DNA from: Saprospiraceae bacterium | GTDB lineage: Bacteria > Bacteroidota > Bacteroidia > Chitinophagales > Saprospiraceae | Length of the DNA: 57,465 nt | Assembly: GCA_020630775.1 (NCBI GenBank) | Contig: JAHDIN010000021.1 | Span: forward strand, 1-57,465 | Direction of reading: 5' to 3' | Notes under the pieces: generated by a model | The model's database searches: none | Told to the model about the DNA's origin: nothing | What the model saw: only the letters and a program-made list of their open reading frames with translations | Shown here: positions 19,011 through 32,112 of the stretch, in pieces | How the letters are laid out: each line of letters opens with the position of its first letter | Numbering within the stretch: the first letter of the stretch is position 1 | Made by a program: the position numbers and the translations under genes

Positions 19011-19013
19011 AAG

Positions 19014-19025: not shown

Positions 19026-19035
19026 TTTGTAAGAC

Positions 19036-19078
19036 TGATTAAGATCATCAGAGCTGACGGTTTACGGATTTATGTTTG
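19036..19078 (+). promoter_or_regulatory. FNR/FixK-like box plus -7 element for the CBS-USP operon
   Basis: The box TGATTAAGATCA (19036-19047) matches the FNR/FixK core TGAT-N4-ATCA. After 23 bp comes TATGTTTG (19071-19078), a perfect Bacteroidota -7 element, 17 bp before the start codon at 19096. If the final G is about 5 nt from the transcription start, the box centre lies near -41.5, the class II activator position. No clear -33 element is seen. Confidence 0.75.
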
Positions 19079-19095
19079 TATAAAATTAATAAGAA

Positions 19096-19536
19096 ATGAA
19101 TTTATTATCTCCAATTTCTGAAATCATGAGTACCGATCTCATATCTGTATCTCCTTATGATGATTTAGAACAAGTAAAAACCATATTTGATAACAACCGG
19201 ATTCATCATATACCTGTAGTGAAGGATGGGGCAATAATTGGACTAGTAAGTAAATCTGATTACTTGTTTTTCCGAAGAGGCTTTTTAGATGATAGTTCTT
19301 TAAAGCGCCTCGAGTTAATAAGACTCAGTACGCATACTGTAAGTGAAATCATGACAACCGGTTTGGCGACTTTAGCTCCAGACCAAAAAATTAATGTGGC
19401 TATAGAATTGCTTAAAGAGAATTTATTTCATGCTGTTCCAGTCGTGGAGGATGAGCAATTAGTGGGCATCGTAACGACATGGGATATCATCAATCAGATC
19501 TCTGAGAAGAAAAGTGTAACAAATCATTACGAATAG
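19096..19536 (+). CDS. CBS-domain pair protein
   Basis: This 146-residue protein consists almost entirely of two CBS domains (about 8-65 and 80-140), which usually bind adenine nucleotides as a Bateman module. The repeated motifs are IHHIPVVKDGAIIGLVSKSD and HAVPVVEDEQLVGIVTTWD. There is no catalytic domain. It is first in an operon with three universal stress proteins (the next gene starts 2 bp after its stop) and lies behind an FNR/FixK-like promoter. Stand-alone CBS pairs such as mycobacterial Hrp1 are hypoxia-induced, which fits the setting. A role in energy sensing is inference. Confidence 0.92.
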   Translation: MNLLSPISEIMSTDLISVSPYDDLEQVKTIFDNNRIHHIPVVKDGAIIGLVSKSDYLFFRRGFLDDSSLKRLELIRLSTHTVSEIMTTGLATLAPDQKINVAIELLKENLFHAVPVVEDEQLVGIVTTWDIINQISEKKSVTNHYE

Positions 19537-19538
19537 TT

Positions 19539-20621
19539 ATGGTGCAAATGACAATATATGGTAAGCAGTCCTCAGTCTATGAATATCTTAAAATGAAAAT
19601 TTCTGATAGTGCAAAAATGGCTGGTCTTGAATTGCAGCTAAATGAGATAAATGATACAGCTGTATTTGTAGAAGAGAAATTAATGCAGATTCCTGCTGTT
19701 AAGATTGATGGCAACTTGATTTATAATTCTTCATCAGATATAAATAATTACATTATGGAAGTTACCGACAAGCTGTTAAAAAAAGAGAATTATGGAGAAC
19801 TTAAAAAAGTAGTTGTCCCTATTGATTTTTCTGATCACTCACATAATGCTGTCAAGTTTGCGATACAATTGTCAAAGTACATGAATTGTGTTATAGAACT
19901 AGTGCATTACTTCCGTCCCCGTCTTTCAAAGTATGCAACATCTGGGAATACGTATGAATTGACTGAGAAGGAATCAAATGAAATACTGAAGACCTACGTG
20001 GATAATTTGAAAAAGCAAAACTTCAACGTGCCGTTTTCTCCGAAGTTCATAAAATCAAGATTAGAAGTCGGTTCTGTAATCGATGGTTTGAAAAATGATT
20101 TCGAAAGCGACTCTTTGGTCATTATGGGAAGCCAAGGGGAGGGCAATTCGTTTGCAAAGACTTTTGGTTCTGTTTCGACAACTGTAGCTCAGAAAGGCAA
20201 TAATGATACTATCATAGTGCCAGGTAATTATAATTTCAAACCATTTCAGGAGATTCTATTTTGTACTGAAGATCCTCAAAAGGATATTAAAGCTATTTTT
20301 TCATTAGTGGAATTGGCGGAATTATTTGATGCAAAAATTCATGTGGTTCATTTTAATATCGATGATGCTAAGCCTTTAAGTTATAATTTGATCGAAGCAT
20401 TCAGATCAAATTATTCTAAGCATAAAATTGTATTCGAAACAGTTGAGGCTGAAAATATTGTGCAAGGGGTCTCTGACTATGCTGAGAAAGAAAGCATTGA
20501 TTTAATTACCATTTCTAGAAGTTCAAAAGGTTTTCTCGAAAACTTATTTTCTACAAGTTTTACCAAGCAATTGGTTATGTATTCTAATATCCCTATTCAC
20601 ATCATAAATGTTGTAAAATGA
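19539..20621 (+). CDS. Universal stress protein with N-terminal thioredoxin-like domain lacking cysteines
   Basis: This 360-residue protein has three parts. Residues 1-88 look like a small thioredoxin/glutaredoxin fold of the Thioredoxin_3 type, with a cis-Pro-type motif (IPAVKIDGNLIY). The place where a CxxC would sit reads GKQSSVY, so it cannot act as a dithiol enzyme. Residues about 89-235 are a UspA domain starting KKVVVPIDFS, with the nucleotide-binding signature GSQGEGNSFAKTFGSVS. Residues 236-360 are a second, degenerate UspA domain. It follows the CBS gene by 2 bp and overlaps the next USP gene by 4 bp (ATGA). A second ATG at 19548 is possible. The domain order is clear; the role of the N-terminal domain is unknown. 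Confidence 0.88.
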   Translation: MVQMTIYGKQSSVYEYLKMKISDSAKMAGLELQLNEINDTAVFVEEKLMQIPAVKIDGNLIYNSSSDINNYIMEVTDKLLKKENYGELKKVVVPIDFSDHSHNAVKFAIQLSKYMNCVIELVHYFRPRLSKYATSGNTYELTEKESNEILKTYVDNLKKQNFNVPFSPKFIKSRLEVGSVIDGLKNDFESDSLVIMGSQGEGNSFAKTFGSVSTTVAQKGNNDTIIVPGNYNFKPFQEILFCTEDPQKDIKAIFSLVELAELFDAKIHVVHFNIDDAKPLSYNLIEAFRSNYSKHKIVFETVEAENIVQGVSDYAEKESIDLITISRSSKGFLENLFSTSFTKQLVMYSNIPIHIINVVK

Positions 20622-21454
20622 AAAATATTTTAGTTCCTATAGATTTTACTAAGGTAGCTTTTAATGCTTTAGAATATGCGATAAATGCTTTTCCTGAATC
20701 TAATATCTTAGTATTGCATGTAACGCCTCCTTCTTTAAATACTACAGAAATAAAATATTCCCTACTTAATCGTATAAGAACAGAAGCGGATGTTTTGCAA
20801 GATGAAGTAAAGCGCCTCATTAAGCTCGAATTAAATCTGGAAGACATTCCTAGTAATTTGAATTTGATTATGAGAAAGGGGGATATTCTGCCAGTGATCA
20901 ATAAGTTGTCTCAAGAATTAGCCATCGATACAATTGTGATGGGGACTAGGGACAAGTATGATATGTTTGACAAAATTATTGGAACAACTTCTTTGGCTAT
21001 CATTAAAAGTCAACAAGTTCCAACCTACCTTATACCTAAGGATGTGAAATATACACCTTATAAAAAGGTACTCGTCGCAAGTGATTATCATTTGCTTACA
21101 AGCAGCTTAGGCAGAAAAATAAAGGAATGGAACAAATCCTTTAGAGCTTATATTAGATTTTTTCATGTTAAAAAAGGGCAGGAAAAATTTCATAAAGAAA
21201 CGGATCAATTGATTACGGATTTATTTGATGGTGATGCCCCGCAATTTGTGTTTGACTTGATCCAGAAAGAAGGGGATAACATTGGCGAGATGCTTTTAAA
21301 TGAAGCTGAGAGCTTCAACGCTAATTTAATAGTGACTATGCCTGAGAAGCAAAATTTTATTAGTAGAGTATTCTTGAAGAGTGTGACAAAGTCTTTGGTT
21401 CAAAAATCTAAGGTTCCACTTCTTTTTATCCATCCTCAAAATATTTTGGTATGA
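20618..21454 (+). CDS. Universal stress protein, tandem UspA domains
   Basis: This 278-residue protein has two UspA-like halves. The first opens with MKNILVPIDFTKVAFNAL and carries a diverged nucleotide loop, GTRDKYDMFDKIIGTTS, in place of G-2x-G-9x-G-S. The second half opens with YKKVLVASDY and is more degenerate. The first domain may therefore bind ATP weakly or not at all. The start overlaps the previous stop (ATGA) and the end overlaps the next start in the same way, so translation is probably coupled across the three USP genes. Confidence 0.9.
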   Translation: MKNILVPIDFTKVAFNALEYAINAFPESNILVLHVTPPSLNTTEIKYSLLNRIRTEADVLQDEVKRLIKLELNLEDIPSNLNLIMRKGDILPVINKLSQELAIDTIVMGTRDKYDMFDKIIGTTSLAIIKSQQVPTYLIPKDVKYTPYKKVLVASDYHLLTSSLGRKIKEWNKSFRAYIRFFHVKKGQEKFHKETDQLITDLFDGDAPQFVFDLIQKEGDNIGEMLLNEAESFNANLIVTMPEKQNFISRVFLKSVTKSLVQKSKVPLLFIHPQNILV

Positions 21455-22257
21455 AAATCCTATGTCCAATAGATTTTTCTAGGTGTTCAATTAATGCAGT
21501 CAATTGGATAGCTGAACATCTTAAAGATCAAAATGATATAGATGTCCATTTGATTCATTGTTTGGAATTAAAAGGCTTTAAAAGCTTGAATGGCGCTGAT
21601 CCTGAAATGATTAAAGAAGTAGCAAAGAGAAAGATTAAGGACTTGGCTAAACAACTGCATAGTAAATATCCTAGCTTTCGAGTTGAGTCCAGTGTTTATG
21701 AGGCAAATCCGAAAGCGTTTTTAGTAAATAAGTTGAATTATCATCCTGTAGATTTGGTCGTGATGGGTTCAGTTGGATTAAGTCAATTTAAGGAGATGAC
21801 TATTGGTAGTGTCAGTAATTATGTGATTGATAACATAGATATTCCAACGCTATTGATTCCTGATAATTATGCTTATCAAGGCATTCGCAAAACGCTAATT
21901 GGTGTAGATAAACTAGAGGTCAAGCACCCATCGGTAGTGGATGGATTAAATCAGCTGTTATATGATAAATCTTCTGAGATCATTATAACTCAAGTTGACG
22001 ATGATATTTACAGTGATCAGTTTGAGTACGATTATAGGATTGACGATTACTTAAGAGAATATAAGCTCGAAGTCGCAAAGATTAAAAAAGAGGTAAGTAT
22101 TTCTAATACACTAAATAAATATGCAGCATTAAATGACGTACAGCTCATATGTTATTTGCACAGAAAACGCAGTTGGTTTAAAAACATCTTTCACTTTAGT
22201 TCTTTACGAGAAAGTTTGTATGACTTAGAGTTCCCTTTGTTGGTTTTATCCGATTGA
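21451..22257 (+). CDS. Universal stress protein, tandem UspA domains
   Basis: This 268-residue protein begins MKILCPIDFSRCSINAV. It carries an intact UspA nucleotide signature in its first half (MGSVGLSQFKEMTIGSVS), which predicts ATP binding. The second half, from about residue 148, is a diverged UspA-like domain without the glycine loop. It is the last gene of the four-gene operon 19096-22257. The start overlaps the previous stop by 4 bp. The next promoter begins 20 bp after its stop, so transcription units are tightly packed here. Confidence 0.9.
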   Translation: MKILCPIDFSRCSINAVNWIAEHLKDQNDIDVHLIHCLELKGFKSLNGADPEMIKEVAKRKIKDLAKQLHSKYPSFRVESSVYEANPKAFLVNKLNYHPVDLVVMGSVGLSQFKEMTIGSVSNYVIDNIDIPTLLIPDNYAYQGIRKTLIGVDKLEVKHPSVVDGLNQLLYDKSSEIIITQVDDDIYSDQFEYDYRIDDYLREYKLEVAKIKKEVSISNTLNKYAALNDVQLICYLHRKRSWFKNIFHFSSLRESLYDLEFPLLVLSD

Positions 22258-22276
22258 TCATAAACATATCTGCTGA

Positions 22277-22319
22277 TGACTTAGGTCATTTTGTCACTAT
22301 AGTTAATGCATCACTTTTG
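22277..22319 (+). promoter_or_regulatory. FNR/FixK-like box plus -7 element for hsp20 operon
   Basis: The box TGACTTAGGTCA (22277-22288), flanked by A and T, is a perfect TGAC-N4-GTCA palindrome. Exactly 23 bp later is CACTTTTG (22312-22319), a variant -7 element, 31 bp before the Hsp20 start. Confidence 0.72.
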
Positions 22320-22350
22320 ATATAATTAATTAACCATAAAACTTAAATAT

Positions 22351-22782
22351 ATGTCACTTGTAAAATGGAATAGAAGTTTGCTTTCCCCAAGTGTAGATGC
22401 TTGGATGGATTCTTTTTTTGACAATGGTCCCGTTGAATTGATACAGTCATCAATGGCCATGCCTGCAGTTAATATTGTTGAAAATGTGAATGATTATACC
22501 TTAGAATTAGCAGTGCCTGGAAGGGCTAAAGAGGATTTTAAATTAGAAATCGAAAGTAATACTTTGCGTGTAAGCACTGAATCGCAAACCGAAAACGAAT
22601 CCGAAAACAAAAATTACAAACGCAGAGAGTATTCCTATAGCTCTTTTGCTCGATGTTTTACTTTGCCAGATAATATAAATCCTGACGATGTTTCAGCACA
22701 ATATTCTGAAGGCATTTTGACTATTGTAGTGCCTAAGACCGAGGTAAATCAAGAAGATAAAAGGATTATTGCTATCACTTAA
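22351..22782 (+). CDS. Small heat shock protein, Hsp20/alpha-crystallin family
   Basis: This 143-residue holdase chaperone has the usual layout: a short N-terminal arm (MSLVKWNRSLLSP), an alpha-crystallin domain from about residue 38 (PAVNIVENVNDYTLELAVPG) to about 135, and a short tail. Core motifs include FARCFTLPDNINPDDV and YSEGILTIVVPK. The C-terminal tail has IIAIT in place of a classical I-x-I motif. It is first in an operon with a CBS protein and a D-lactate dehydrogenase-like enzyme, behind an FNR/FixK-like promoter. Hsp20 is also a hallmark of the mycobacterial hypoxia regulon. Confidence 0.95.
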   Translation: MSLVKWNRSLLSPSVDAWMDSFFDNGPVELIQSSMAMPAVNIVENVNDYTLELAVPGRAKEDFKLEIESNTLRVSTESQTENESENKNYKRREYSYSSFARCFTLPDNINPDDVSAQYSEGILTIVVPKTEVNQEDKRIIAIT

Positions 22783-22840
22783 TTAAGGTTTGAGGCGATT
22801 GGTTTTGCTGGCTAGTCGTCTCTCTTTTAAAATCGATCAA

Positions 22841-23260
22841 ATGAAACGGACTATTTCAATGTATATGATAAAAGATCCATCTTTTGTTGGTGTTGATCTT
22901 GGTTTAAATCAAATATTAAAAAAGTTTGAAACATCAGGACTGTCGCATCTGTTGGTTAGCGATGAAAATAATCAATTGATGGGCATAATATCTAAGGCAG
23001 ACTTGGTTTCTAGACTGGACTTCCTTACAAAAAATTCATCAGGAAAAACTTATTCGGCACTTTCTCGGCAAGGTATTTCAGCTGCAGATATAATGACTGA
23101 AAAACCAATCTGTATAAAACCTGACGATGATGTGGCTTACGCAGTTGAATTATTACTCCAAAAGAAATTTCATGCATTACCCGTTGTTAAGGATAATCGC
23201 CCTATAGGCATTGTTACTTTTTATGATTTACTCAAAGGGTACTATCAAGAATTTGGATAA
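22841..23260 (+). CDS. CBS-domain pair protein
   Basis: This is a 139-residue Bateman module. The first CBS domain (about 7-60) contains SHLLVSDENNQLMGIISKADL and the second (about 80-135) contains HALPVVKDNRPIGIVTFYDL. I chose the ATG at 22841 (MKRTISMYMI) over an upstream TTG at 22790, because the region between them is not conserved-looking and lies right after the Hsp20 stop. Its stop lies 8 bp before the dehydrogenase gene. The ligand is unknown; adenylates are usual for this fold. Confidence 0.9.
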   Translation: MKRTISMYMIKDPSFVGVDLGLNQILKKFETSGLSHLLVSDENNQLMGIISKADLVSRLDFLTKNSSGKTYSALSRQGISAADIMTEKPICIKPDDDVAYAVELLLQKKFHALPVVKDNRPIGIVTFYDLLKGYYQEFG

Positions 23261-23268
23261 TGTAAGCA

Positions 23269-24261
23269 ATGGATAAGCTCAATATTTGTTTTTATTCTGT
23301 AAAAGATTATGAACTTTCATTTATTCGATTCGCTAATCAGAATACTTATAATTTAAGGTTGAATGATGTTTGTCTTTCTTTAGATAATGTTCATTATGTA
23401 AAGGGCTGTGAAGTTGTTAGTTTATTCTCTAGGGATAAATGTAACAAAGAGGTTCTGTCAGTTATGAAAGAGCTAGGTGTGAAGCTCATAACATTGCGTT
23501 CGACAGGATATGATAATGTAGATCTAGAAACTGCAACCAAATTAGGAATTAAGGTGGCTCATGTGCCTTCTTACTCTCCAGAGTCAATTGCCGAACATAC
23601 CTTGATGTTAGCCTTGTTATTATTGAAAAACTTTAAAAAAGCTCAATTAAATATAAGTGCGTGTAATTTTAATTTAACTGGTTTGCTCGGAACCAATCTT
23701 GGTGAAATGACTGTAGGGGTTATTGGTACAGGTATGATTGGTTTGGCTTTCATAAGACTTTTGAAAGGATTAGGTGCCAAGGTCATGGCCTATGATATCC
23801 TTCCTAGTTCATACTCAGCTTTAAGATGGGATTATGAATATGTTGAATTAGATGAACTATATGCAAAGTCAGACCTTATTTCCTTGCATATTCCAATGAA
23901 TGAAAATAATAGATACTTTATCGATGAGAATAGCCTATCAAAAATGAAAACTGGTGTATTTATTATAAATACAAGTGGGGGGAAGTTGATCAACACGAAA
24001 CATGTGCTGACAGCAATTCGAAATAATAAAGTAAGAGGACTTGGGCTCGATGTTTACGAAAATGAAGCTGATTTCTTCTTCGAAAAACATCATAATGTTA
24101 ATGATCCTCTTTTAAACGAGTTGATTGAAAATGAACGTATTATTCTAACAGGTCATCAAGCATTCTTTACCCATACCGCACTTCGTAATATTGCCATTAT
24201 TACATTTAAGAACATCGCGAATTACCGTCAGGGTCGATTTGACCAAAATTTTCTTGTATAA
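23269..24261 (+). CDS. D-2-hydroxyacid dehydrogenase, D-lactate dehydrogenase-like
   Basis: At 330 residues this matches the length of fermentative D-lactate dehydrogenases, which reduce pyruvate to D-lactate and re-oxidise NADH. The NAD-binding loop is GTGMIG (153-158), followed by the acidic D176 that favours NAD. The catalytic Arg lies in LRSTGYDNVD (about residue 77), the Glu in the LGLDVYENE region and the catalytic His in LTGHQAFFT. The motif PSYSPESIAEHTLML is typical of the LdhA branch. The gene follows a CBS gene by 8 bp in the Hsp20 operon. Its place behind an FNR/FixK-like promoter suggests fermentative redox balancing at low oxygen. Substrate specificity is not proven. Confidence 0.88.
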   Translation: MDKLNICFYSVKDYELSFIRFANQNTYNLRLNDVCLSLDNVHYVKGCEVVSLFSRDKCNKEVLSVMKELGVKLITLRSTGYDNVDLETATKLGIKVAHVPSYSPESIAEHTLMLALLLLKNFKKAQLNISACNFNLTGLLGTNLGEMTVGVIGTGMIGLAFIRLLKGLGAKVMAYDILPSSYSALRWDYEYVELDELYAKSDLISLHIPMNENNRYFIDENSLSKMKTGVFIINTSGGKLINTKHVLTAIRNNKVRGLGLDVYENEADFFFEKHHNVNDPLLNELIENERIILTGHQAFFTHTALRNIAIITFKNIANYRQGRFDQNFLV

Positions 24262-24280
24262 CGAATGTCATCCTAGGGAA

Positions 24281-24323
24281 TGACCATCGTCATAAAATAT
24301 AGCCGCTAGATGTAAGAAATTTG
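24281..24323 (+). promoter_or_regulatory. FNR/FixK-like box plus -7 element
   Basis: The box TGACCATCGTCA (24281-24292), flanked by A and T, is a TGAC-N4-GTCA palindrome. It is followed after 23 bp by GAAATTTG (24316-24323), a variant -7 element, 59 bp before the ATG at 24383. Confidence 0.7.
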
Positions 24324-24382
24324 GTTTAGCATTAGAAATGAAGACTCTAATTAACCTTTATTAATTGACAGAACATTTAGCT

Positions 24383-25105
24383 ATGAAAATTTACAAATTA
24401 TTTAGCGCTATAATTATTGCGATCATAACCACCTTTAGTGGCTTTTCTCAGCAAAGTAATAACTATGCTCAAGTAGAATCTGCTTTGCTTAATCTTTATT
24501 TTGCAGCCGATGCTGAGGATTATTCAAAAGCCAATAGCGCACTTAAAACCTCTGCCAAATTATGGGAAGCGACTTTGAGTTTGAAGTCAGATGACCAGGT
24601 ATGTAACATTTTACGTCAAACACATACTTGTGCTATTGATGGTTATTTTTCTGTTTTAAGAATAGCTCTAGATTCTAAAAACTTTGATCTTGTCCAACTT
24701 TATTCTTCTAAGATAATTACCGAATTATCAAAGTCAAGATCAGTTGAGTCAAGTCAAATTTATCCTTTAGATATAGCATGGAATGCCTATCAATCATATT
24801 TATCAGTCCATGAAACAGTCCATGATCAAATGTTTGGTTTACGAGAGTGGTTTGAGTTTGAAGATATGGTACATACGCTTTCTGCTGATTTACAGTATTA
24901 TAACAATTTTAAGCTTACGGATATTCAAACGTATTTCCCTCACATAGATGCAAAAGCACATAATGAAGCATTAGTGGCCGTAAATTCATGTTTTTATGAG
25001 TTTCTTCTTTCTTTAGAAAGTGGCTATACTGAAGAATTTGAATGGCCTTGCTATGAACTAGGTGAGGCGTTGGTTAAGCTTTTAGAATTATATAAGAATA
25101 GTTAG
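24383..25105 (+). CDS. Exported helical protein of unknown function in the stress island
   Basis: This 240-residue protein has an N-terminal signal peptide ending near FSGFSQQ, so it is exported to the periplasm or beyond. The rest looks mainly helical and rich in Leu, Ala, Ser and Tyr, and contains a few Cys (VCNILRQTHTCAI). I do not recognise the family. The ATG at 24383 is preferred over a TTG at 24365, because it gives a clean signal peptide. The gene stands alone behind its own FNR/FixK-like promoter, and the next such box begins 20 bp after its stop. It is therefore a predicted member of the hypoxia regulon with no known role. Confidence 0.8.
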   Translation: MKIYKLFSAIIIAIITTFSGFSQQSNNYAQVESALLNLYFAADAEDYSKANSALKTSAKLWEATLSLKSDDQVCNILRQTHTCAIDGYFSVLRIALDSKNFDLVQLYSSKIITELSKSRSVESSQIYPLDIAWNAYQSYLSVHETVHDQMFGLREWFEFEDMVHTLSADLQYYNNFKLTDIQTYFPHIDAKAHNEALVAVNSCFYEFLLSLESGYTEEFEWPCYELGEALVKLLELYKNS

Positions 25106-25125
25106 ACCAAAATCATTACAGCAGA

Positions 25126-25168
25126 TGACAACAGTCATAAACACGTTCTTATTTTCTTCTCAACTTTA
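25126..25168 (+). promoter_or_regulatory. FNR/FixK-like box plus -7 element for the CBS pair
   Basis: The box TGACAACAGTCA (25126-25137), flanked by A and T, is followed after 23 bp by CAACTTTA (25161-25168), a weak -7 element. The start codon is 15 bp further on. Confidence 0.68.
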
Positions 25169-25183
25169 AATAAACAAATTAAG

Positions 25184-25609
25184 ATGTTAGCAAATTATCA
25201 AATTCAAATTTCGGAAGTCATGTCAGATGCCTTGGTAACATTGCATCCTAAGGATAAGGCGTCCAGGGCAAAAGAAATATTTAATCAATACGATATACAT
25301 CATATACCCATTGTTGTGATGAAGAAAGTTGTTGGAGTCCTCAGTATGGGTGACTTGTTGATAAAGGAACGCAAAATTTCAAAACATACAGATAAGTTTC
25401 TAAGTCAGAACAATATCTTCTTTCATAATATTGAAGAATTTATGACTGAAAATCCAATCACTATAGATGAAAAAGCAACCTTAAAAGATGCACTCGAATT
25501 ATTGACAGCAAACAGAATTAATTGTCTGCCAGTAGTTGCCAATAATGAGATAAAGGGTATAGTTACTTCTTACGATATTCTTGTTTTTATAAAAAATAAA
25601 AATTCATAG
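25184..25609 (+). CDS. CBS-domain pair protein
   Basis: This 141-residue protein is made of two CBS domains: IHHIPIVVMKKVVGVLSMGDL in the first, and MTENPITIDE followed by NCLPVVANNEIKGIVTSYD in the second. It is first in a two-gene unit with another CBS-pair protein whose start is 2 bp after its stop. The two may form a heteromeric Bateman assembly, which is inference. It lies directly behind an FNR/FixK-like promoter. Confidence 0.9.
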   Translation: MLANYQIQISEVMSDALVTLHPKDKASRAKEIFNQYDIHHIPIVVMKKVVGVLSMGDLLIKERKISKHTDKFLSQNNIFFHNIEEFMTENPITIDEKATLKDALELLTANRINCLPVVANNEIKGIVTSYDILVFIKNKNS

Positions 25610-25611
25610 TT

Positions 25612-26046
25612 ATGATTAATACTTTCGTGAAAAACCAACTTGTCTCAGATTTGATGACAAAAAATATGTTGACCGCAGGCTTAAATGATACTGTGGGTGA
25701 AATCGAATCTGTAATGGAAGGATCTGAAATACATCATATCCCAGTAATAAATGATAATTATGAATTGCAAGGGATCATCAGTAAAGTGGATATACAGGTG
25801 CTTAAGCACTGGGGAACAAAGTTTGAACTAAAGGAGGCTGCTGTTCAAAATAAAGGGATTTTAGATAGCATGTTGGCCAAAGATATTATGCAGAAAAACT
25901 GTGTGACTGTAGCACCTGATCAGTCTTTGTCATATTGCGCTGATCTTTTCAAGCAAAATAAATTCCGTGCCTTACCTGTAGTAGAAGACAATAAGCTAAA
26001 AGGTATAATTACGACTTATGATTTATTAGTAGCGGCTTACCAATAA
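25612..26046 (+). CDS. CBS-domain pair protein
   Basis: This 144-residue protein has two CBS domains, with IHHIPVINDNYELQGIISKVD in the first half and FRALPVVEDNKLKGIITTYDL in the second. It is translationally adjacent to the preceding CBS gene. It is the fourth CBS-only protein of the island, and all four have the same size and architecture, which suggests local duplication. It has no fused enzyme or transporter. Confidence 0.9.
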   Translation: MINTFVKNQLVSDLMTKNMLTAGLNDTVGEIESVMEGSEIHHIPVINDNYELQGIISKVDIQVLKHWGTKFELKEAAVQNKGILDSMLAKDIMQKNCVTVAPDQSLSYCADLFKQNKFRALPVVEDNKLKGIITTYDLLVAAYQ

Positions 26047-26123
26047 TTGTCTGTTCCGTTCAGAGCGTAGATGGTATGCGGAAAAGGATGTAGCAGAATT
26101 CACATAATTAAAACTCTAAAAAA

Positions 26124-26216
26124 ATGATGACGATTGTTTATGTATTTATAATTCTATGTATTTTAAGTTTTTACCTTCTTGCAATCAATTTTTACCTTTC
26201 TAATTTGATGGATTGA
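26124..26216 (+). CDS. 30-residue single-span membrane protein
   Basis: This is a short open frame beginning ATGATG that encodes MMTIVYVFIILCILSFYLL and then a polar tail ending SNLMD. It would be one transmembrane helix with almost nothing else. It lies 77 bp after the CBS pair and just before a hairpin with a T tract, so it could be the last gene of that transcript. Size and shape recall small subunits such as KdpF or CydX, but I see no specific similarity and no Kdp or cytochrome bd genes nearby. Short open frames arise by chance in AT-rich DNA, so confidence is moderate. Confidence 0.5.
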   Translation: MMTIVYVFIILCILSFYLLAINFYLSNLMD

Positions 26217-26230
26217 ATCATAGATAATGT

Positions 26231-26265
26231 ACCTCTAAGTCCGGTAGGAGAGAGGTTCGTTTTTA
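26231..26265 (+). terminator. Hairpin with T tract after the 30-residue gene
   Basis: ACCTCT (26231-26236) pairs with AGAGGT (26251-26256) around a 14-nt loop and is followed by TCGTTTTT. It is placed to end the 25184-26216 transcript. The stem is only 6 bp. Confidence 0.5.
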
Positions 26266-26332
26266 ATACCTTGATCTCTTTAGAATTCAGTTTATGTAAA
26301 AGTTTTTATAGAAATATTCAAATTGCCTAACG

Positions 26333-26366
26333 AAGCTCATTCTTGTCATTAAGGATGAGCTTTTAT
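26333..26366. terminator. Second hairpin, possible terminator
   Basis: AAGCTCAT (26333-26340) pairs perfectly with ATGAGCTT (26355-26362) around a 14-nt loop, followed by TTATAATTTC. A third partial copy of the arm (TTAAGCTCAT) follows downstream. Between 26366 and the box at 26479 I see no gene. Confidence 0.45.
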
Positions 26367-26478
26367 AATTTCTTTAAGCTCATTCTAAATGTTGAGATGT
26401 TCTGATTTGCTCTTAGTGGAATTTGAAATTGTGTCTGTTGTTGGGCTGATTTTAGTGTGTAGAAATCATTCGTTGTAA

Positions 26479-26521
26479 TGATTCTTGTCATCACTATTTT
26501 TTCATGTATTAAATAGATTTA
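26479..26521 (+). promoter_or_regulatory. FNR/FixK-like box plus -7 element
   Basis: The box TGATTCTTGTCA (26479-26490), flanked by A and T, pairs one TGAT half-site with one GTCA half-site. TAGATTTA (26514-26521) follows after 23 bp and fits TAnnTTT(G/A). The start codon at 26536 is 14 bp further on. Confidence 0.7.
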
Positions 26522-26535
26522 TAAAAAATAAATAC

Positions 26536-26964
26536 ATGAAACAAATTGCAGTATGGTTGGACTTAGAAGAGGCATTTATCATTGACTTCAATGCCGACAA
26601 GTCAAACGTTAGCCACATTCAGTCAGAAATTGAACACTATGCGTTAAAGGGTGGATCTCGCTCGAAATCGCCTTATGGTCCTATGGATAAAACATCAGAA
26701 AGTAAGCTGTTGAATCGAAAAAAAATGCAGACCAAGTCCTACTTTAAAAACTTATATGATACCATTAAAGTAGGCGATGAGTTGCTGCTCATGGGGCCTG
26801 CAGAAATAAAGAATCATTTTGCGAAATATCTAAATGATTTGTCTGTAAAATGTCCTCAGATTGTTGATGTCTTAACGGTAGACTCTATAACATTAAATCA
26901 AAAAGTAGCCCAAGCTAGGGACTATTTTGACCTGCGTAATAAGAAAAGAAGAATCAAGTTTTAA
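26536..26964 (+). CDS. baeRF/eRF1-like small protein
   Basis: This 142-residue protein resembles the last domain of bacterial release-factor-like (baeRF, eRF1-domain) proteins. It has an N-terminal strand MKQIAVWLDLEEAFIIDF, a basic middle segment with many Lys and Arg, the motif DELLLMGPAEIKNHFAKYL, and a C-terminal strand VDVLTVDSITLNQ. Similar proteins are often linked to ribosomes, but the function here is inference. The ATG at 26536 is preferred over an upstream TTG at 26485, which overlaps the promoter box. It heads a unit with two USP genes, the first 9 bp after its stop. Confidence 0.7.
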   Translation: MKQIAVWLDLEEAFIIDFNADKSNVSHIQSEIEHYALKGGSRSKSPYGPMDKTSESKLLNRKKMQTKSYFKNLYDTIKVGDELLLMGPAEIKNHFAKYLNDLSVKCPQIVDVLTVDSITLNQKVAQARDYFDLRNKKRRIKF

Positions 26965-26973
26965 TTCGGTGCT

Positions 26974-27858
26974 ATGAAAAAAAATAAAAGAGTATTGTTA
27001 GCGCTAGATTATACATCAATGGATGAGACATTAATTAATTATACAGAATATATAATTGATATTTTGAGTCCTCAATCCATTACAGTAGTTCATGTGATTC
27101 AAGATGTTTTCACTGACGGGATTGAGCTTAGGAAAAATGAGCTAAATTATTCGCAAGATATCAATGACTATGTAAAGTCACTTCTGGAAATTCGTTTGCA
27201 GGAGACAAAGTTAAAAACACATGAGGCTTTTTCCTTCAATCTAGAAATAGTGAAGGGGTCTCCGCAACATGTATTATCTGAAAAAATGCAATCAGGTGAT
27301 TATGATATCTTAATTGTTGGGTGTAAGAAAGCTCCTTGGAATAGTGGTTCTATAATAAGGAGAGTTGCGCATAATATTCATGAAGATATCATGGTTGTTC
27401 CAGAAGGAGTAAAGAATGATATCAGACATATATTGGTTCCGTTTGATTTTTCTGATAATTCGCAACGGGCATTTGAGGCTGCATTGAAAATGAAGCAAAC
27501 TTTAAAGGATGTCCTTATTTCACCCGTTTATATTTTGCCTAAATATAGGATGGGCTATTACAGTGTTGAAAAAGAATCTGAAGTTTTTAATAATTATTAT
27601 AAACAGATAGCTGTCACATCTTGGAATAAGTACTTAGATGGTATTGGAGAAGATATGTGTGAGTATACCTTGAAATGTGTTAATAGCACAAATAAGAATA
27701 CGAGTTCATTGATATATGAGTCTGCTTGGGATATGGGTGTGGACTTCATTATGATAGGTGCGGTTGGTAAATCCAATATTGAAAAGGTGCTATTTGGGAG
27801 TACAACCGAACGATTTGTTGATTTAAATAAAGAATTTCCTTTAATGATTATACGATGA
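26974..27858 (+). CDS. Universal stress protein, tandem UspA domains
   Basis: This 294-residue protein has two UspA halves. The N-terminal half (KKNKRVLLALDY) has a degenerate loop (VGCKKAPWNSGSIIRR). The C-terminal half, starting near IRHILVPFDFS, has the intact signature GAVGKSNIEKVLFGSTT. In the other USPs of this island the first half is usually the better preserved, so this one is inverted in that respect. It overlaps the next USP gene by 4 bp (ATGA). Confidence 0.9.
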   Translation: MKKNKRVLLALDYTSMDETLINYTEYIIDILSPQSITVVHVIQDVFTDGIELRKNELNYSQDINDYVKSLLEIRLQETKLKTHEAFSFNLEIVKGSPQHVLSEKMQSGDYDILIVGCKKAPWNSGSIIRRVAHNIHEDIMVVPEGVKNDIRHILVPFDFSDNSQRAFEAALKMKQTLKDVLISPVYILPKYRMGYYSVEKESEVFNNYYKQIAVTSWNKYLDGIGEDMCEYTLKCVNSTNKNTSSLIYESAWDMGVDFIMIGAVGKSNIEKVLFGSTTERFVDLNKEFPLMIIR

Positions 27859-28691
27859 AAAAAATATTAATACCTACTGATTTTTCAGAAGCAAGTCTTA
27901 ATTCTATAAAGTATGCGATTGACCTTTTTCGTTACGAACGTGTAGAACTTCAATTAGTAAACGTCATAACACCATTGGCTATTGACTATTCGTATGGAGC
28001 AGTTGTAGACGAAAAGGCGGTTGAGATCATGATTCAAGATTCTAAAAAAGCTTTTACTAAGATTATTAGTCAATTGAGGAAGGATTTGCACACTCAAAGT
28101 TTTAAGATTGATTATGAAATAGTTATCGGTCAAGTAGTTTATAAAATAAAAGAGCTTTCTAAGTCGTATAATCCTGATCTATTGATTATGGGTAATCAAG
28201 GTTCGAATTACGATCCAGTGAGCAAGTTTTTTGGATCTGTCAGTTCTGCCATAGTCGGTGACCCTAGTGTGCCAACATTGCTGGTGCCTTTTTCTTATAA
28301 GCAGGCTGGCCCTATAAGATCGATTTTGTTCGCAACAAAAATGTATAAATCAGATCTCTTTGACCTTTCTAGGGTTCAGGATATGTTCAAAATGTTTCAA
28401 CCAATAATTCATCTTTTTAATGTGGTGAAAAAACCTAATAAAAAATTTATCACAAGTCATGATAAGTTGCTTGATAAAATGAAAAAGCTGAGTACGGATT
28501 TTGATCTTGTACAGCACGAGGTTGTAGGTTCTAACTTTATTGAGACTTTACTGTCTTTTCTAAGGCATTCTGCTTTCGATATGGTAGTCACGAACAAAAA
28601 GCATTCATCTTTTTTACAGCGACTTATTAAGCAAAGTTATTCAAGTAAGTTATCTCATAAAATTGATGTGCCTCTTCTGGTTATGAATTGA
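27855..28691 (+). CDS. Universal stress protein, tandem UspA domains
   Basis: This 278-residue protein begins MKKILIPTDFSEASLNSI and carries an intact nucleotide-binding loop in its first half (MGNQGSNYDPVSKFFGSVS). The second half (from about residue 150, RSILFATKMY) is a diverged UspA-like domain. The start is coupled to the previous stop by an ATGA overlap. It is the last gene of the operon and is convergent with a decayed P-type ATPase gene. Confidence 0.9.
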   Translation: MKKILIPTDFSEASLNSIKYAIDLFRYERVELQLVNVITPLAIDYSYGAVVDEKAVEIMIQDSKKAFTKIISQLRKDLHTQSFKIDYEIVIGQVVYKIKELSKSYNPDLLIMGNQGSNYDPVSKFFGSVSSAIVGDPSVPTLLVPFSYKQAGPIRSILFATKMYKSDLFDLSRVQDMFKMFQPIIHLFNVVKKPNKKFITSHDKLLDKMKKLSTDFDLVQHEVVGSNFIETLLSFLRHSAFDMVVTNKKHSSFLQRLIKQSYSSKLSHKIDVPLLVMN

Positions 28692-28709
28692 CTAAAGAGG
28701 CCTTAAGTC
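28690..28709. terminator. Hairpin between convergent genes
   Basis: GACTAAAG (28690-28697) and CTTAAGTC (28702-28709) form an 8-bp stem with one mismatch and a 4-nt loop. It overlaps the USP stop codon and is followed by GATTCATTTTG. It could terminate from both sides. Confidence 0.4.
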
Positions 28710-28712
28710 GAT

Positions 28713-29154
28713 TCATTTTGCCTTTAAGTTTAAGACTCTCAAGGCGTTTAATGCGACCAGGACAGTAGAGCTTTCATGGGCAAATACAATTGCCCCCAAT
28801 GGGCTGACTCCTGAGATAGCAATAGGAACCAAAATGCATACCATGGATAAGCTTATCCATATGTTTTGATTGATTATTTTCTTTATGTGTTTGCTTAGTT
28901 CTATACTAAAGCAAATATTCCTCAGTTTATTCGTTAAGATGGCAATGTCCGCGCAAACTGTTTATTTTAGCTTTTAGTAAGTCATTTATGGCATATCTAA
29001 GAGGATATATGCCTCCTAGAAATGCTGATATCAGAAATAGAATGTAATCATATGGAGCACTAAGTAAAACTAATCCTACAAGCCATAAGGTGCCAGAGCA
29101 TAAAGAAAATAGTAGTTCTTTATTTATGCTGCTATCAATTTTCAATTTGATCAT
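28713..29154 (-). pseudogene. P1B-type metal ATPase remnant with large internal deletion (N- and C-terminal membrane parts only)
   Basis: An opening fragment (28927-29154, from ATG) encodes a two-helix membrane segment ending GGIYPLRYAINDLLKAKI, typical of the start of Zn/Cd-type P1B ATPases. In the next frame, from about 28952 down to a stop at 28713, the DNA encodes ADIAILTNKLRNI and, further on, GVSPLGAIVFAHESSTVLVALNALRVL in two adjoining parts. These match the region just after the GDGxNDAPAL motif and the last two helices of the same family. Everything between is missing: the CPx helix, the DKTGT phosphorylation site and the nucleotide-binding domain. The junction lies near 28950-28965 and shifts the frame. 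Pump activity is lost. A P-type ATPase is a common companion of USP/CBS clusters, so this is a recent loss from the island. Confidence 0.85.
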
Positions 29155-29307
29155 TTAGATGTTTTCCAAAAGATGTTTTCAGTATTGTAGATGCTTTGGC
29201 ACAATATCTTACCTTGATAAAGAAGACTCGATTTATAAGTTTATCTCATTAGTTGTGTTTAGGATTGTTGTTTATAATTACATAAATGGCTCATCCTCTT
29301 TTCAAGA

Positions 29308-30000
29308 TTAATAATCAATTTTATTCACTTCAAAATTGAATAGTTTTAATTCATCTTGTTTCCTGACATATTTAGAATTAAGGATTTTGTTGAATTCTTT
29401 ATCTGTAGGATATATGCGATATAGTTCATCACTATTAGCGTCTATGAGTTTATCATATTTTTTAACAAGCGATTTTATGATTCTTTCTTTATTAGGAATA
29501 GAGATATTGCTGAATTCGATTGTACGGTCTGGTTGTTCTTCAAATATGTATGTTATCCAACCAAGGTTCTCTTCATTGAAATTGACAAATAATGCATTGT
29601 CTCTTTGAATGATTTTTGAAGCTGGAGTGAATTTAAACAATGTGTCTATTTCCGATATGGTGACAAGCAATGTGTCCTCGGTTATATATTCAAAGGGGAA
29701 GCACTCTTTTCTTCCAGTTAGGTGTAATCCTCCGTCTTTCAATGAGCAATTCTCAGATTCTAAAACTCTTTTTGTTGTTGTTTTATACTTTATGGTTGTT
29801 TCTGTGGTGACTAAGTTTTTCGAAACAAATAACAGACTTGAATCACTGACGAAATAATACACCCCATGTAAGTTTTCAGGAATGCAACATAAGTGCTCTC
29901 CATCGGATGGCATAGCTTCATTGAAGAATACTTCCTCTTTGCAAGAACTGGTTAATAGAAGAAGTGTGACAAGGCCAAGAACATAATCTAATTTTTTCAT
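29308..30000 (-). CDS. Lipoprotein of unknown function
   Basis: This 230-residue protein has a lipoprotein signal peptide, with lipobox LTSSC placing the lipidated Cys at residue 20. The mature part is mostly beta and charged (for example NLHGVYYFVSDSSLLFVSKN) and has repeated aromatic-acidic strands. I do not recognise the family. It lies 24 bp downstream of the USP gene at 30024 and is probably the last gene of that operon. A 16-A tract sits in its leader, 4 bp before the ATG. Confidence 0.8.
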   Translation of the reverse strand: MKKLDYVLGLVTLLLLTSSCKEEVFFNEAMPSDGEHLCCIPENLHGVYYFVSDSSLLFVSKNLVTTETTIKYKTTTKRVLESENCSLKDGGLHLTGRKECFPFEYITEDTLLVTISEIDTLFKFTPASKIIQRDNALFVNFNEENLGWITYIFEEQPDRTIEFSNISIPNKERIIKSLVKKYDKLIDANSDELYRIYPTDKEFNKILNSKYVRKQDELKLFNFEVNKIDY

Positions 30001-30004
30001 TTTC

Positions 30005-30020
30005 TTTTTTTTTTTTTTTT
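30005..30020 (-). repeat. A16 homopolymer in the leader of the lipoprotein gene
   Basis: An uninterrupted run of 16 T on the + strand (A on the coding strand) lies 4 bp upstream of the ATG at 30000, between the USP stop and the lipoprotein start. Tracts of this length are prone to slippage, which could alter leader length. It is outside coding sequence, so it would act on expression only. Confidence 0.9.
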
Positions 30021-30023
30021 AAT

Positions 30024-30851
30024 TTAAGTAATAGTAAGAATTGGAATTTGATTGTGGTTGGCAATGTATTCTACATTGCTGCCTTGGAATAATCTTTTAA
30101 GGGGGTGTTTGTGTGAGTTGGAAATGCCAATTAGGTCAATGTTGTTTTCAATACAAAAGTGCCTAACGCCAGCATCAACAGAGAAGTCTTTATAAAAGTG
30201 TGTTGTTACATTAAAATCACCGGCTATTTCGGCATATTTCTCTAAGGCATTCTCCATGACGATGGATGGCTGAGAGAAATAGGCTAATGTGTCAATACTC
30301 AATATATGGAGCTCTTTTGTTTCAAATATTGAAAGGTACTTAAGGAAGTTTCTAAATGCTTCTTGTTCGTTTTTAAAAAGTCCAGTAACATAAACAGCTT
30401 TGTCGAATTTTAATTCTTCAACTGGGTTTTTAATGACTAAAACTGGTTTGTCTATTTTGCGAAGAATCTTTTGAGTATTCGAACCTATAAATCGTTCTCT
30501 CTTACCGCTTGCGCCATTAGATCCAATGATAACGAGATCAATGTCTTCGTATAAGCTTTCTTCCAGTAATGCGGATTTAAATTCTTTTTCTATTATACTG
30601 TAGCTGCATTCAATATTTGCGTCTTCAAGTAGTCCTTGATATTTCTCTAGTTTTTCTTGAGCAGAATCGATTAAGGCCTCTTTAATATTGGTTATTAATG
30701 CTTTGTTTTTGGCGGTCAAATTCCAAAAGAAGGGCAGTTCTATGCAATGAAACATCTCAATTTCTGCATCAGTTTTTTTTGCGAATAATATAGATGCATT
30801 GAATGCATTATTAGATACTTCGCTGAAATCTACAGGTACAATAACTTTCAT
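30024..30851 (-). CDS. Universal stress protein, tandem UspA domains
   Basis: This 275-residue protein begins MKVIVPVDFSEVSNNAF and has an intact nucleotide loop in the first half (GSNGASGKRERFIGSNT). The second half, from about residue 147, keeps the alpha/beta pattern with IDLIGISNSHKHPLKRLFQGS, a partly preserved loop. It overlaps the HPF-like gene upstream by 4 bp (ATGA), so the two are translationally coupled. It belongs to the minus-strand operon that starts at 31832 behind an FNR/FixK-like promoter. Confidence 0.9.
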   Translation of the reverse strand: MKVIVPVDFSEVSNNAFNASILFAKKTDAEIEMFHCIELPFFWNLTAKNKALITNIKEALIDSAQEKLEKYQGLLEDANIECSYSIIEKEFKSALLEESLYEDIDLVIIGSNGASGKRERFIGSNTQKILRKIDKPVLVIKNPVEELKFDKAVYVTGLFKNEQEAFRNFLKYLSIFETKELHILSIDTLAYFSQPSIVMENALEKYAEIAGDFNVTTHFYKDFSVDAGVRHFCIENNIDLIGISNSHKHPLKRLFQGSNVEYIANHNQIPILTIT

Positions 30852-31126
30852 GATGTATGTGATTCTATTTGTTGTTTAGAAATTTGAATAACTCCTTTTA
30901 ATGCCTTCTTGTAGTCAGTACTTGAGTGACATACTGTGATCGGAAAGCCTTCTTTAACTTTTATATTGAGTAATATGCTCACTTGATTGTCATCGACGTT
31001 TCTTGTTTCTACATCAATTTGATCGATATTCTTATATTTCGAATAAGCATCATGGATGCATGCGGACCAATGCTCTTGGTTCATGTAATTGATCGCTTCG
31101 CTGTTGACTTTAGTTTGAACTTTCAT
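30848..31126 (-). CDS. HPF/RaiA-like ribosome-associated protein
   Basis: This 92-residue protein has the size and beta-alpha-beta-beta-beta-alpha pattern of short ribosome hibernation factors. It has an early strand and helix (WSACIHDAYSKYKNIDQI), two long strands (VSILLNIKVKEGFPITVCH) and a closing helix starting YKKALKGVI. The similarity is moderate and the typical basic patch is weak. Its stop overlaps the start of a USP gene. If correct, it would silence or protect ribosomes during low-oxygen arrest, as DosR-controlled RafH does in mycobacteria; that parallel is inference. Confidence 0.6.
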   Translation of the reverse strand: MKVQTKVNSEAINYMNQEHWSACIHDAYSKYKNIDQIDVETRNVDDNQVSILLNIKVKEGFPITVCHSSTDYKKALKGVIQISKQQIESHTS

Positions 31127-31186
31127 GATTGATAAATTATGAGTTGATGACTTCTTTATAAATTTTGAGAGGCCAGGCTATAGTTT

Positions 31187-31603
31187 TTAATGACTTAGAA
31201 TCTCTGAATTAAATAGGGGTGCATAAAACTTGCGGTATCTGTATACTAAGTATGTTGCGATTGTAAATTCTAAACATGCAATCAATAGAAAATCTCGAGT
31301 CGGGAATACCAAATTGTATGTCAAAAAGATACTTGCATATACAATAGTCATTAGCGCACCAAAAGCTGAAAATCTTGAAACTAATAGCATGAAGCCGCAA
31401 ATCATTTTGCTGAGGATCAGTAGGTTAAATGCCAATCTCGAACTAATAAAGTTTGTTATAAACGAGATGTTGTAATAAGACCATTCTGGATTGATATAGA
31501 TCCCTTCTATAGACTTGTAAATAGCTGATGCTAATAAATAAATGCCAAAAACTAATCTTATAAATTGACTTAAATCTGTGTTTCCTGACAAGTAAGATTT
31601 CAT
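31187..31603 (-). CDS. DoxX-like four-helix membrane protein
   Basis: This 138-residue protein has four predicted membrane helices and begins with a short cytoplasmic part (MKSYLSGNTDLSQFIRLVFG). The layout and the small polar loops resemble DoxX/DoxD-like proteins, a broad family with poorly defined redox-linked roles. It starts 1 bp before the stop codon of the small membrane protein gene upstream and lies 60 bp before the HPF-like gene. A specific function cannot be read from the sequence. Confidence 0.65.
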   Translation of the reverse strand: MKSYLSGNTDLSQFIRLVFGIYLLASAIYKSIEGIYINPEWSYYNISFITNFISSRLAFNLLILSKMICGFMLLVSRFSAFGALMTIVYASIFLTYNLVFPTRDFLLIACLEFTIATYLVYRYRKFYAPLFNSEILSH

Positions 31604-31604
31604 A

Positions 31605-31832
31605 TTATGCTGACTTTAGATATTCTTGATGACGACTTAAGCTTGTGTGTATAATAGCCTCAGCTTGTACTTTTTCTTTTTTGAAAGAAACACCTAGTAA
31701 TGCGCTAAGGAAAATAGGTAAGGCTAAAATGGATAGATACTCCATCCCAATGACAAAAGGAAATATAACCACGAACATCATAAGGTAGTATCTGAGGATT
31801 ATTGTTGAAAAACTTGCTTTAAATAATTTCAT
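31605..31832 (-). CDS. Small membrane protein, first gene of the minus-strand stress operon
   Basis: This 75-residue protein has a hydrophobic middle of one long or two short helices (about 12-48, IILRYYLMMFVVIFPFVIG onward) and a basic, amphipathic C-terminus (FKKEKVQAEAIIHTS). The family is unknown. It is the first gene after the predicted FNR/FixK-like promoter at 31849-31891 and is followed after 1 bp by the DoxX-like gene, so it very likely belongs to the regulon. Confidence 0.7.
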   Translation of the reverse strand: MKLFKASFSTIILRYYLMMFVVIFPFVIGMEYLSILALPIFLSALLGVSFKKEKVQAEAIIHTSLSRHQEYLKSA

Positions 31833-31848
31833 AATTAATTCTTTTATT

Positions 31849-31891
31849 CAAAGATGGGTGTGTCATGACTGTTTTGCGATGTTATTAATCA
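31849..31891 (-). promoter_or_regulatory. FNR/FixK-like box plus -7 element for the minus-strand stress operon
   Basis: Read on the minus strand, the box is TGATTAATAACA (31891-31880), flanked by A and T, with one mismatch in the second half-site. After 23 bp comes CATCTTTG (31856-31849). The start codon of the 75-residue gene is 16 bp further. The box-to-element spacing equals that of the five plus-strand promoters. Confidence 0.65.
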
Positions 31892-32112
31892 TCTGGTGGA
31901 ATGATATTCGTCAGTTTAGTGGATGTGTCACCAAGGTATCTTAGTAGTAAGTAAAAGATACTTGTTATGAGAACAGATAAAATGTCGTTCGCCAAGATTG
32001 TTGGCGTTAAATGTTTGTCGTTATGTAATCTGATTGTTTCAGCTATTATTAGAAGACTAATGGATTTACAAACGCAAATTCGAAAACAGCTAAAATTGTA
32101 TTCTAAGCTCAA
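31885..32112 (-). CDS. Doubtful 75-codon open frame
   Basis: This is an open frame with a TTG start. Its C-terminal part (DILSVLITSIFYLLLRYLG, then a polar tail ending PPDD) could be a small membrane protein. Against it, it has no ATG start, and its stop overlaps the predicted promoter box for the next operon. An inverted repeat CGCCAA-N5-TTGGCG (31990-32006) lies inside it. Nothing else supportable is seen between 31892 and the tRNA at 32255. I list it as possible only. Confidence 0.25.
   Translation of the reverse strand: MSLEYNFSCFRICVCKSISLLIIAETIRLHNDKHLTPTILANDILSVLITSIFYLLLRYLGDTSTKLTNIIPPDD

Follow-up and report, generated by a model that had tools for sequence, protein, structure and literature searches.

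Regulator, kinase and promoters at the locus

The window analysed here, a 57,465-nucleotide stretch of a Saprospiraceae bacterium from the phylum Bacteroidota (contig JAHDIN010000021.1, assembly GCA_020630775.1), belongs to a 3.1-Mb genome bin of 84 contigs with a completeness of 53.9%. On its minus strand, a gene for a regulator that joins a receiver and Crp-type domains in one protein (REC-CRP, 16730-17779) lies beside a gene for a FixL-like sensor histidine kinase (17784-19010). Next to this pair are six promoters, P1 to P6, in which two palindromic dyads at a fixed spacing precede a -7 element.

In Pfam, REC-CRP consists of a receiver (residues 4-116), a cNMP-binding-type beta roll (159-244) and a Crp-type helix-turn-helix (HTH, 279-345); PF00027 and PF13545 both score over their cut-offs, and the protein thereby has the beta roll and Crp-type HTH of the Crp/Fnr family. 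The receiver residues D9, D52 (the phosphoacceptor) and K104 are kept in 74 of 74 relatives, with Thr or Ser at position 82. Equally invariant in these relatives are E314 and R318 of the recognition helix, a Glu and an Arg that presumably read the TGA core of TGA-N6-TCA as in Crp and Fnr. Two other HTH_Crp_2 proteins found in the bin carry SRQTV at the recognition position. An AlphaFold2 model has a helix at 313-325 (mean predicted local distance difference test score 79.2, predicted template modelling score 0.40; its domain arrangement is unreliable), and the sole Cys among the invariant columns of a 12-row alignment is C51, in the receiver. Named relatives of the protein include members of the Saprospiraceae, Chitinophagaceae, Cyclobacteriaceae and Flavobacteriaceae; Reichenbachiella faecimaris (L088) and Parachryseolinea silvisoli (L102) are cultured environmental examples in which sites lie near the locus.

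The kinase has a PAS-HisKA-HATPase organization in Pfam. Its PAS domain aligns to the FixL structures 1d06 and 1dp6 (E ~2e-27) and keeps both the heme His and the Arg of the IIGxGR motif; His67 is the predicted proximal heme ligand and Arg87 the predicted residue of the distal pocket, roles which are assumed to be those of FixL. A FixL-like PAS match is present in 51 of 74 relatives' loci, many of which are only 4 kb long, and in the best match per locus the heme His is found in all 49 aligned and the distal Arg in 41 of 50. As the protein reaches 152.5 bits in the NCBIfam rhizobial FixL equivalog NF041777, where the cut-off is 850, it is classed as FixL-like and not as rhizobial FixL. Adjoining the regulator genes is a 5270-amino-acid (aa) open frame (864-16676, plus strand) with repeated leucine-rich-like segments recognized by eye.

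A preliminary description of this DNA had listed six boxes fitting ATGAY-N4-RTCAT with at most one deviation, each followed after 23 bp by an 8-mer, the -7 element. Every one of these boxes and 8-mers can be found in the sequence with the letters given, four boxes matching exactly and two with one mismatch. Two details needed correction. The box starts had been set one too high and are 19035, 22276, 24280, 25125 and 26478 on the plus strand, with the sixth box at 31879-31892 on the minus strand; each 14-bp box is separated from its 8-mer by 22 bp. A second dyad, absent from that description, lies exactly 22 bp upstream of each box, with a clear RTCAT half in every promoter but P2.

In P1 (plus strand), the distal dyad GTGACTAAAGTCAT (19013-19026) and the proximal dyad CTGATTAAGATCAT (19035-19048) are followed by the -7 element TATGTTTG (19071-19078) at a spacing that is kept in relatives. 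P2, on the same strand, has a degenerate distal dyad TTGATCATAAACAT (22254-22267) with AACAT in place of RTCAT, the proximal dyad ATGACTTAGGTCAT (22276-22289) and the -7 element CACTTTTG (22312-22319). The same order on the plus strand is seen in P3 (distal ATAACGAATGTCAT, 24258-24271; proximal ATGACCATCGTCAT, 24280-24293; -7 element GAAATTTG, 24316-24323) and P4 (distal TAGACCAAAATCAT, 25103-25116; proximal ATGACAACAGTCAT, 25125-25138; -7 element CAACTTTA, 25161-25168). P5, again on the plus strand, starts with a half-dyad, TGTGTAGAAATCAT (26456-26469), of which the right half is recognizable and the left is not, and continues with the proximal dyad ATGATTCTTGTCAT (26478-26491) and the -7 element TAGATTTA (26514-26521). 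P6 is read on the minus strand (distal CTGACGAATATCAT, 31901-31914; proximal ATGATTAATAACAT, 31879-31892; -7 element CATCTTTG, 31849-31856). Against the full site (TGA-N6-TCA plus the rest), P1 to P6 show 0, 1, 1, 1, 3 and 1 mismatches. A weak mirror promoter of P6 lies on the plus strand at 31888-31944 (TATCTTAG, two mismatches; operator region 31849-31944); a convincing downstream gene was not found for it, and it was dropped as a seventh promoter.

TAnnTTTG, the -7 box of sigma-A, occupies -12 to -5 in a published map of start sites in Flavobacterium psychrophilum (PMC9723704). Because the box lies there in this map of another genus, the proximal dyads are predicted to centre near -41.5 and the distal dyads near -63.5. 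The former is the position of the activator dyad in class II Crp/Fnr promoters, here relative to predicted starts, and had already been proposed in the preliminary description; the constant 22-bp gap and the mapped placement of the -7 box agree with it.

Exact dyads occur four times in the window against 0.67 expected, a number reached in none of 100 shuffles. Dyads with one mismatch (27 against 16.25 expected, reached in two of 100 shuffles) are weak evidence alone. A composite pattern of distal RTCAT, 8 bp, proximal dyad, 22 bp and NAnnTTTR was found seven times with up to two mismatches, against 0.03 expected, the seventh match being the weak P6 mirror. In the whole bin, exact dyads outnumber the reversed pattern, which served as the control, by 50 to 14, and composites with up to three mismatches by 28 to 6; with 0-1 mismatch the scan of these 3.1 Mb returns the six window promoters only. 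As the composite pattern had been drawn from the six window sites themselves, the window and bin counts are partly circular, and the analysis therefore moved to relatives, where the tests are out of sample.

Recurrence of the tandem architecture in relatives

The main out-of-sample set consists of 45 named loci around REC-CRP orthologues (755 kb), chosen by the regulator alone, and a wider set of 74 loci with REC-CRP orthologues (871 kb) from which the window locus was excluded. A version with 55 loci adds L223-L229, hand-picked among regulator-bearing genomes, and L230-L232, picked for sites; since it holds such regions, the counts were remade on the 45 named loci and also repeated on 52 loci. 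In all anchor counts (80 exact dyads, 400 and 582 looser cores), each palindromic core is counted on both strands.

Around the 80 exact dyads of the 74 loci there is a single upstream peak, at offset 22 (17 partners; 0-2 at other offsets), while NAnnTTTR peaks downstream at gaps of 22 (16) and 44 (7). When up to two mismatches are allowed, the 45 named loci contain 40 composites and not one reversed match; with three mismatches included, the numbers are 76 and 4. The looser core TGAY-N4-RTCA has a partner at offset 22 for 70 of 400 anchors, compared with 9 at offset 23 and a mean of 1.39 elsewhere, and TAnnTTTG, measured from the end of the core, occurs 18 times at a gap of 23 and 18 times at a gap of 45, against a mean of 0.43. 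The 55-locus version gave 124 of 582 anchors at offset 22. Among 35 loci without a full-length regulator match the composite was found three times (0 reversed), and in 31 loci without the full regulator, several of them from other phyla, the peak in offset and gap was not seen.

In the 45 named loci, 53 tandem operators were found blind to the promoter. A -7 element stands at the predicted spacing on at least one side of 44 of them (one side 38, both sides 6, neither 9), against a background of 0.88% per position; the corresponding numbers in the 55-locus version are 62 of 86, nine of these on both sides. Bases outside the search pattern also recur. Of 27 sites, 23 have the T, 23 the G and 25 the A of the distal left half, and the -7 element begins with T in 42 of 67 (27 sites from relatives' loci and 40 among the family-genome matches listed). 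A first gene is in reach of 40 of 51 tandem promoters in the named loci, with a median leader of 31 nt, and of 60 of 72 promoters in the 55 loci (median 29 nt). Two-sided tandem operators, which are candidate divergent promoter pairs, were noted at L226:1315-1410, L228:1751-1846, L087:12121-12216 and L103:17395-17490. Three cores in series at 22-bp steps, each case giving two overlapping tandem matches, occur at G067:C2:2518584-2518639 and G054:C68:5691-5746.

Association of sites and regulator across genomes

Of 148 genomes drawn from the phylum, 23 yielded a REC-CRP, and every one of these belongs to the window's class. The 60 genomes of the window's family were divided by a long REC-CRP match below E 1e-55 into 39 with and 21 without the regulator, the frameshifted G047 being put with the former. 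Because the genomes are related and the number of candidates scored in each was capped (the best 34 at most in one protein search and 14 at most in the other), the p values for this association are guides. Composites with up to two mismatches number 234 against 12 for the control in the 39 genomes with the regulator and 27 against 9 in the 21 in which it was not found (p 8e-7). A pattern just as common at random genomic places, which the preliminary description had named as the outcome that would speak against it, is not what these 39 genomes show. Tandem cores in the family behave in the same way (415 against 12 with, 51 against 7 without; p 3e-6), and tandem-site density is about 3.5-fold higher where REC-CRP was found.

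In the rest of the class, composites number 108 against 9 in 20 genomes with REC-CRP, 31 of the 108 coming from G158 alone, and 22 against 7 in 14 genomes without (p 0.014). Tandem cores were counted in 20 chosen genomes of these 34 (11 with and 9 without REC-CRP), giving 98 against 1 and 16 against 1, respectively (p 0.02); the 14 genomes omitted are mostly from family f5, in which the single-dyad form dominates, so the choice favours the tandem link outside the window's family, and G123 was also omitted. No composite match was found in six genomes outside the class. G158 (family f3) has 31 composite and 37 tandem sites with 0 control matches in both, apparently a much larger regulon than that of the window's bin, and several receiver-domain matches lie in its region L230.

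Promoters with a single dyad and the same spacing occur in f4 and f5 genomes in which REC-CRP was not found (13 against 1 in G127, 13 against 0 in G154). The box with its -7 element was accordingly rejected as a signature unique to REC-CRP: the class-II geometry is general, and the tandem pair is the part that is tied to the regulator. In the same sense, the earlier proposal that one regulon can be defined from sequence holds for the class-II geometry and for the single regulon, whereas a single box plus -7 element, as the f4 and f5 genomes illustrate, does not suffice to define it. Since single-dyad promoters occur where REC-CRP was not found, other Crp/Fnr proteins of the class probably read this half-site.

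Genes behind the promoters

P1 precedes a predicted operon (19096-22257, plus strand) of a CBS-domain protein (19096-19536) and three universal stress proteins (Usp; starting at 19539, 20618 and 21451) according to Pfam. Similar CBS-Usp operon heads are preceded by a site in L223, L224, L226 and L228, with 0, 1, 0 and 2 mismatches. Since the P1 operator reaches into the stretch that immediately precedes the kinase gene, it may repress this gene as well. The P2 operon (22351-24261, plus strand) encodes Hsp20 (22351-22782), a CBS-domain protein (to 23260) and a D-lactate-dehydrogenase-like 2-hydroxyacid dehydrogenase (23269-24261; Pfam, NCBIfam). A site stands before Hsp20 in L225, where CBS and dehydrogenase genes then follow, and in L230, a region picked for sites. 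The P6 operon (29308-31832, minus strand, putative extent) comprises genes for a small membrane-like protein (31605-31832), a 138-aa, a 92-aa, a Usp (30024-30851) and a 230-aa protein, and its first gene is preceded by a site with 0 mismatches in L223, L225 and L226. In relatives, a site thus accompanies half of the operon heads, those of P1, P2 and P6. To the eye, the 92-aa protein (30848-31126, minus strand) resembles a ribosome-hibernation factor; neither a Pfam or NCBIfam match nor a homologue in the relatives' loci was found for it.

The remaining promoters are all on the plus strand. P3 stands before a single gene (24395-25105) for which no Pfam or NCBIfam match at E 0.01 was found; 35% similar stretches occur in L224 and L225, where a site directly upstream was not seen. 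Behind P4 are two CBS-domain proteins (25184-26046; Pfam) and behind P5 an unnamed 142-aa protein, with a 46% homologue in L064, and two Usp (26974 and 27855; operon 26536-28691; Pfam).

The 60 first genes of the 55 loci were tallied in Pfam against 60 genes taken at random from these loci. Usp (11 versus 5), E1-E2 (P-type) ATPases (5 versus 1) and PAS kinases (5 versus 2) lean upward from the control and the cbb3 oxidase hardly does (COX1 3 versus 2, FixO 3 versus 2) in these raw counts; Crp-type HTH genes are equal (3 versus 3). Among the families listed for the target side, without a control figure, are YceI (3), CBS (2) and HSP20 (2). L230-L232 contribute six of the 60 first genes. An earlier tally of 41 against 41 genes gave 7 versus 4 for Usp, 4 versus 1 for PAS kinases and 3 versus 1 for E1-E2 ATPases. 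The random control genes were unscreened, REC-CRP genes making up 7 of 41 and 3 of 60. In L074, L099 and L106, the REC-CRP gene is itself the first gene after a tandem promoter. FixO was not found in the 53.9% complete bin, and cbb3 oxidase was therefore dropped as a target in the window's own genome.

Proposed mechanism and alternatives

Taken together, the six promoters probably form one regulon that is switched on by the adjacent FixL-like kinase and REC-CRP, with low-oxygen survival as its output. When oxygen leaves the heme, the heme-PAS kinase would be freed from a brake and would phosphorylate Asp52 of REC-CRP. The phosphorylated regulator would then bind both TGA-N6-TCA dyads, 22 bp apart between centres, as two adjacent CRP-type dimers; at two helical turns these would sit on one face of the DNA, where contact, and with it cooperativity, is possible. 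The proximal dimer, in the class-II position, would act as an activator by replacing the -33 element and recruiting sigma-A RNA polymerase to TAnnTTTG. The predicted output is a survival set for low oxygen or energy limitation, composed of Usp, CBS proteins, Hsp20 and the D-lactate-dehydrogenase-like enzyme, to which some relatives could add cbb3 oxidase, a FixI-like ATPase, and kinase or regulator genes.

Several observations weigh against this reading. The distal dyad is weak in P2 and P5, and a conserved site was not seen in the relatives' loci for the P3, P4 and P5 heads. The target tally mostly covers the neighbourhood of the regulator, where Usp (5 of 60) and cbb3 genes (2 of 60) are present among the controls too. 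The 21 family genomes in which REC-CRP was not found contain 51 tandem sites, 11 of them in G027; given the limited candidates scored, some regulators may have been missed there. Conversely, with REC-CRP present, G015 has 0 composite and 0 tandem sites, G040, G062, G104 and G189 have 0 composites and G162 has 0 tandem sites, and in f5 the single-dyad form dominates with or without the regulator. The distal Arg of the kinase is replaced in nine of 50 relatives, so that the ligand may not be oxygen in every case. Finally, a further Crp/Fnr protein may be missing from the incomplete bin.

The alternative that survives best, unlikely as it appears, is a REC-CRP regulon that responds to a signal other than oxygen, for example nitric oxide, carbon monoxide, redox or energy state. 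Heme PAS domains bind several gases, and the replacements of the distal Arg by Thr, Phe, Met, Ile, Leu or Val (L076, L078, L079, L082, L084, L085, L092, L094 and L109) may reflect another gas ligand. The window kinase, however, keeps both His and Arg and aligns to FixL, and the relatives' targets include heavy-metal P-type ATPases and cbb3 oxidase, the latter at 3 of 60 against 2 of 60 in the control.

Alternatively, a stand-alone Fnr- or Crp-like regulator could bind the boxes with REC-CRP as a mere neighbour. Such a regulator would fit the single-dyad promoters that share this half-site and spacing in genomes where REC-CRP was not found, and it could be missing from a window genome that is only 53.9% complete. 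Yet tandem sites are denser in family genomes with REC-CRP, composites reach about 53 per Mb around its orthologues (40 in the 755 kb of the 45 loci) against 1.1 per Mb in the 39 family genomes, and the two other Crp-type proteins found lack the Glu at the recognition position. These points make a stand-alone regulator a distinctly unlikely explanation.

It is also improbable that the two boxes work independently, with the distal dyad as a site of its own that serves repression or the binding of another regulator. The greater degeneracy of the distal dyads in P2 and P5 would be expected in that case, but both dyads share the same core at a fixed 22-bp offset, and in the six operators with -7 elements on both sides each dyad is the proximal one for one direction. 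A chance pattern assembled by eye, to which the mild enrichment of one-mismatch dyads in the window might point, can be rejected with near certainty on the basis of the out-of-sample peaks and the reversed-pattern controls.

On balance, though with considerable doubt, the FixL-like kinase and REC-CRP may represent a class-wide hypoxia circuit of the Bacteroidota, in which the FixL-FixJ-FixK steps are carried out by two proteins and two REC-CRP dimers 22 bp apart occupy a rigid operator of four half-sites. Because this operator is symmetric, one copy could fire two divergent promoters, with each dyad as the class-II site for one direction. If so, the Bacteroidota would gain a defined low-oxygen regulator, operator and regulon, predictable from sequence in many environmental genomes, and a natural experiment in wiring a two-component receiver straight onto a Crp-type activator, for which the strict 22-bp pairing predicts cooperative dimer-dimer contacts. 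The recurrence of the design near a matching regulator in many relatives points to a little-studied switch for low-oxygen survival.

Comparison with known systems

A Bacteroidota regulon under a FixL/REC-CRP pair was not found among the titles and abstract starts of the open-access papers listed in the literature searches. Within the class, the closest likeness is to the single-dyad Crp/Fnr-type promoters of f4 and f5, which have the same half-site and 22-bp gap to TAnnTTTG, also in genomes where REC-CRP was not found, and in which the second dyad is mostly absent. In the DosRS/T system of Mycobacterium, heme-sensor kinases act with a response regulator, as is proposed for the window. There, the heme domain of the kinase is of the GAF type, the regulator is of the NarL type and the boxes differ; the window regulator has a Crp-type HTH instead. 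Also shared is a hypoxia regulon rich in Usp and containing alpha-crystallin, described with 10 Usp among 48 genes (PMC6127331). The low-oxygen lxa locus of Burkholderia cenocepacia likewise holds Usp and alpha-crystallin genes, and the same source takes up homologues of FixK and FixLJ in connection with it (PMC6127331); FixJ and FixK are separate there. NmpRSTU of Myxococcus is another two-component system whose targets include CBS, Usp and cbb3-associated genes (PMC11841059); it differs in its NtrC-like regulator.

The alphaproteobacterial FixLJ/FixK logic (PMC4999443) offers a further parallel. Rhizobial FixL-FixJ-FixK(2) has in common with the window system a FixL-type heme-PAS kinase and, in FixK, a Crp/Fnr-type activator without an iron-sulfur cluster, as described in the same source. 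The rhizobial microoxic set is reported to include Usp, CBS, DnaJ, cbb3 and FixI proteins (PMC6515984). The FnrN anaerobox TTGA-N6-TCAA shares the TGA-N6-TCA core of the window boxes, and a small heat-shock protein with an anaerobox is described as FnrN-dependent (PMC11784457). Unlike the rhizobial boxes, those of the window mostly have A and not T as the outer base of the half-site, and they come as tandem dyads at a fixed 22 bp with a Bacteroidota sigma-A -7 box. In addition, receiver and Crp-type domains share a single chain in Pfam, and the transcriptional step from FixJ to fixK is absent. By analogy, the window system would work like the FixLJ-FixK cascade; it is not a member of it, because FixJ and FixK functions are not separate proteins. 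It is best read as a new variant of oxygen-linked two-component control, in which one REC-CRP protein would unite the functions that rhizobia divide between FixJ and FixK.

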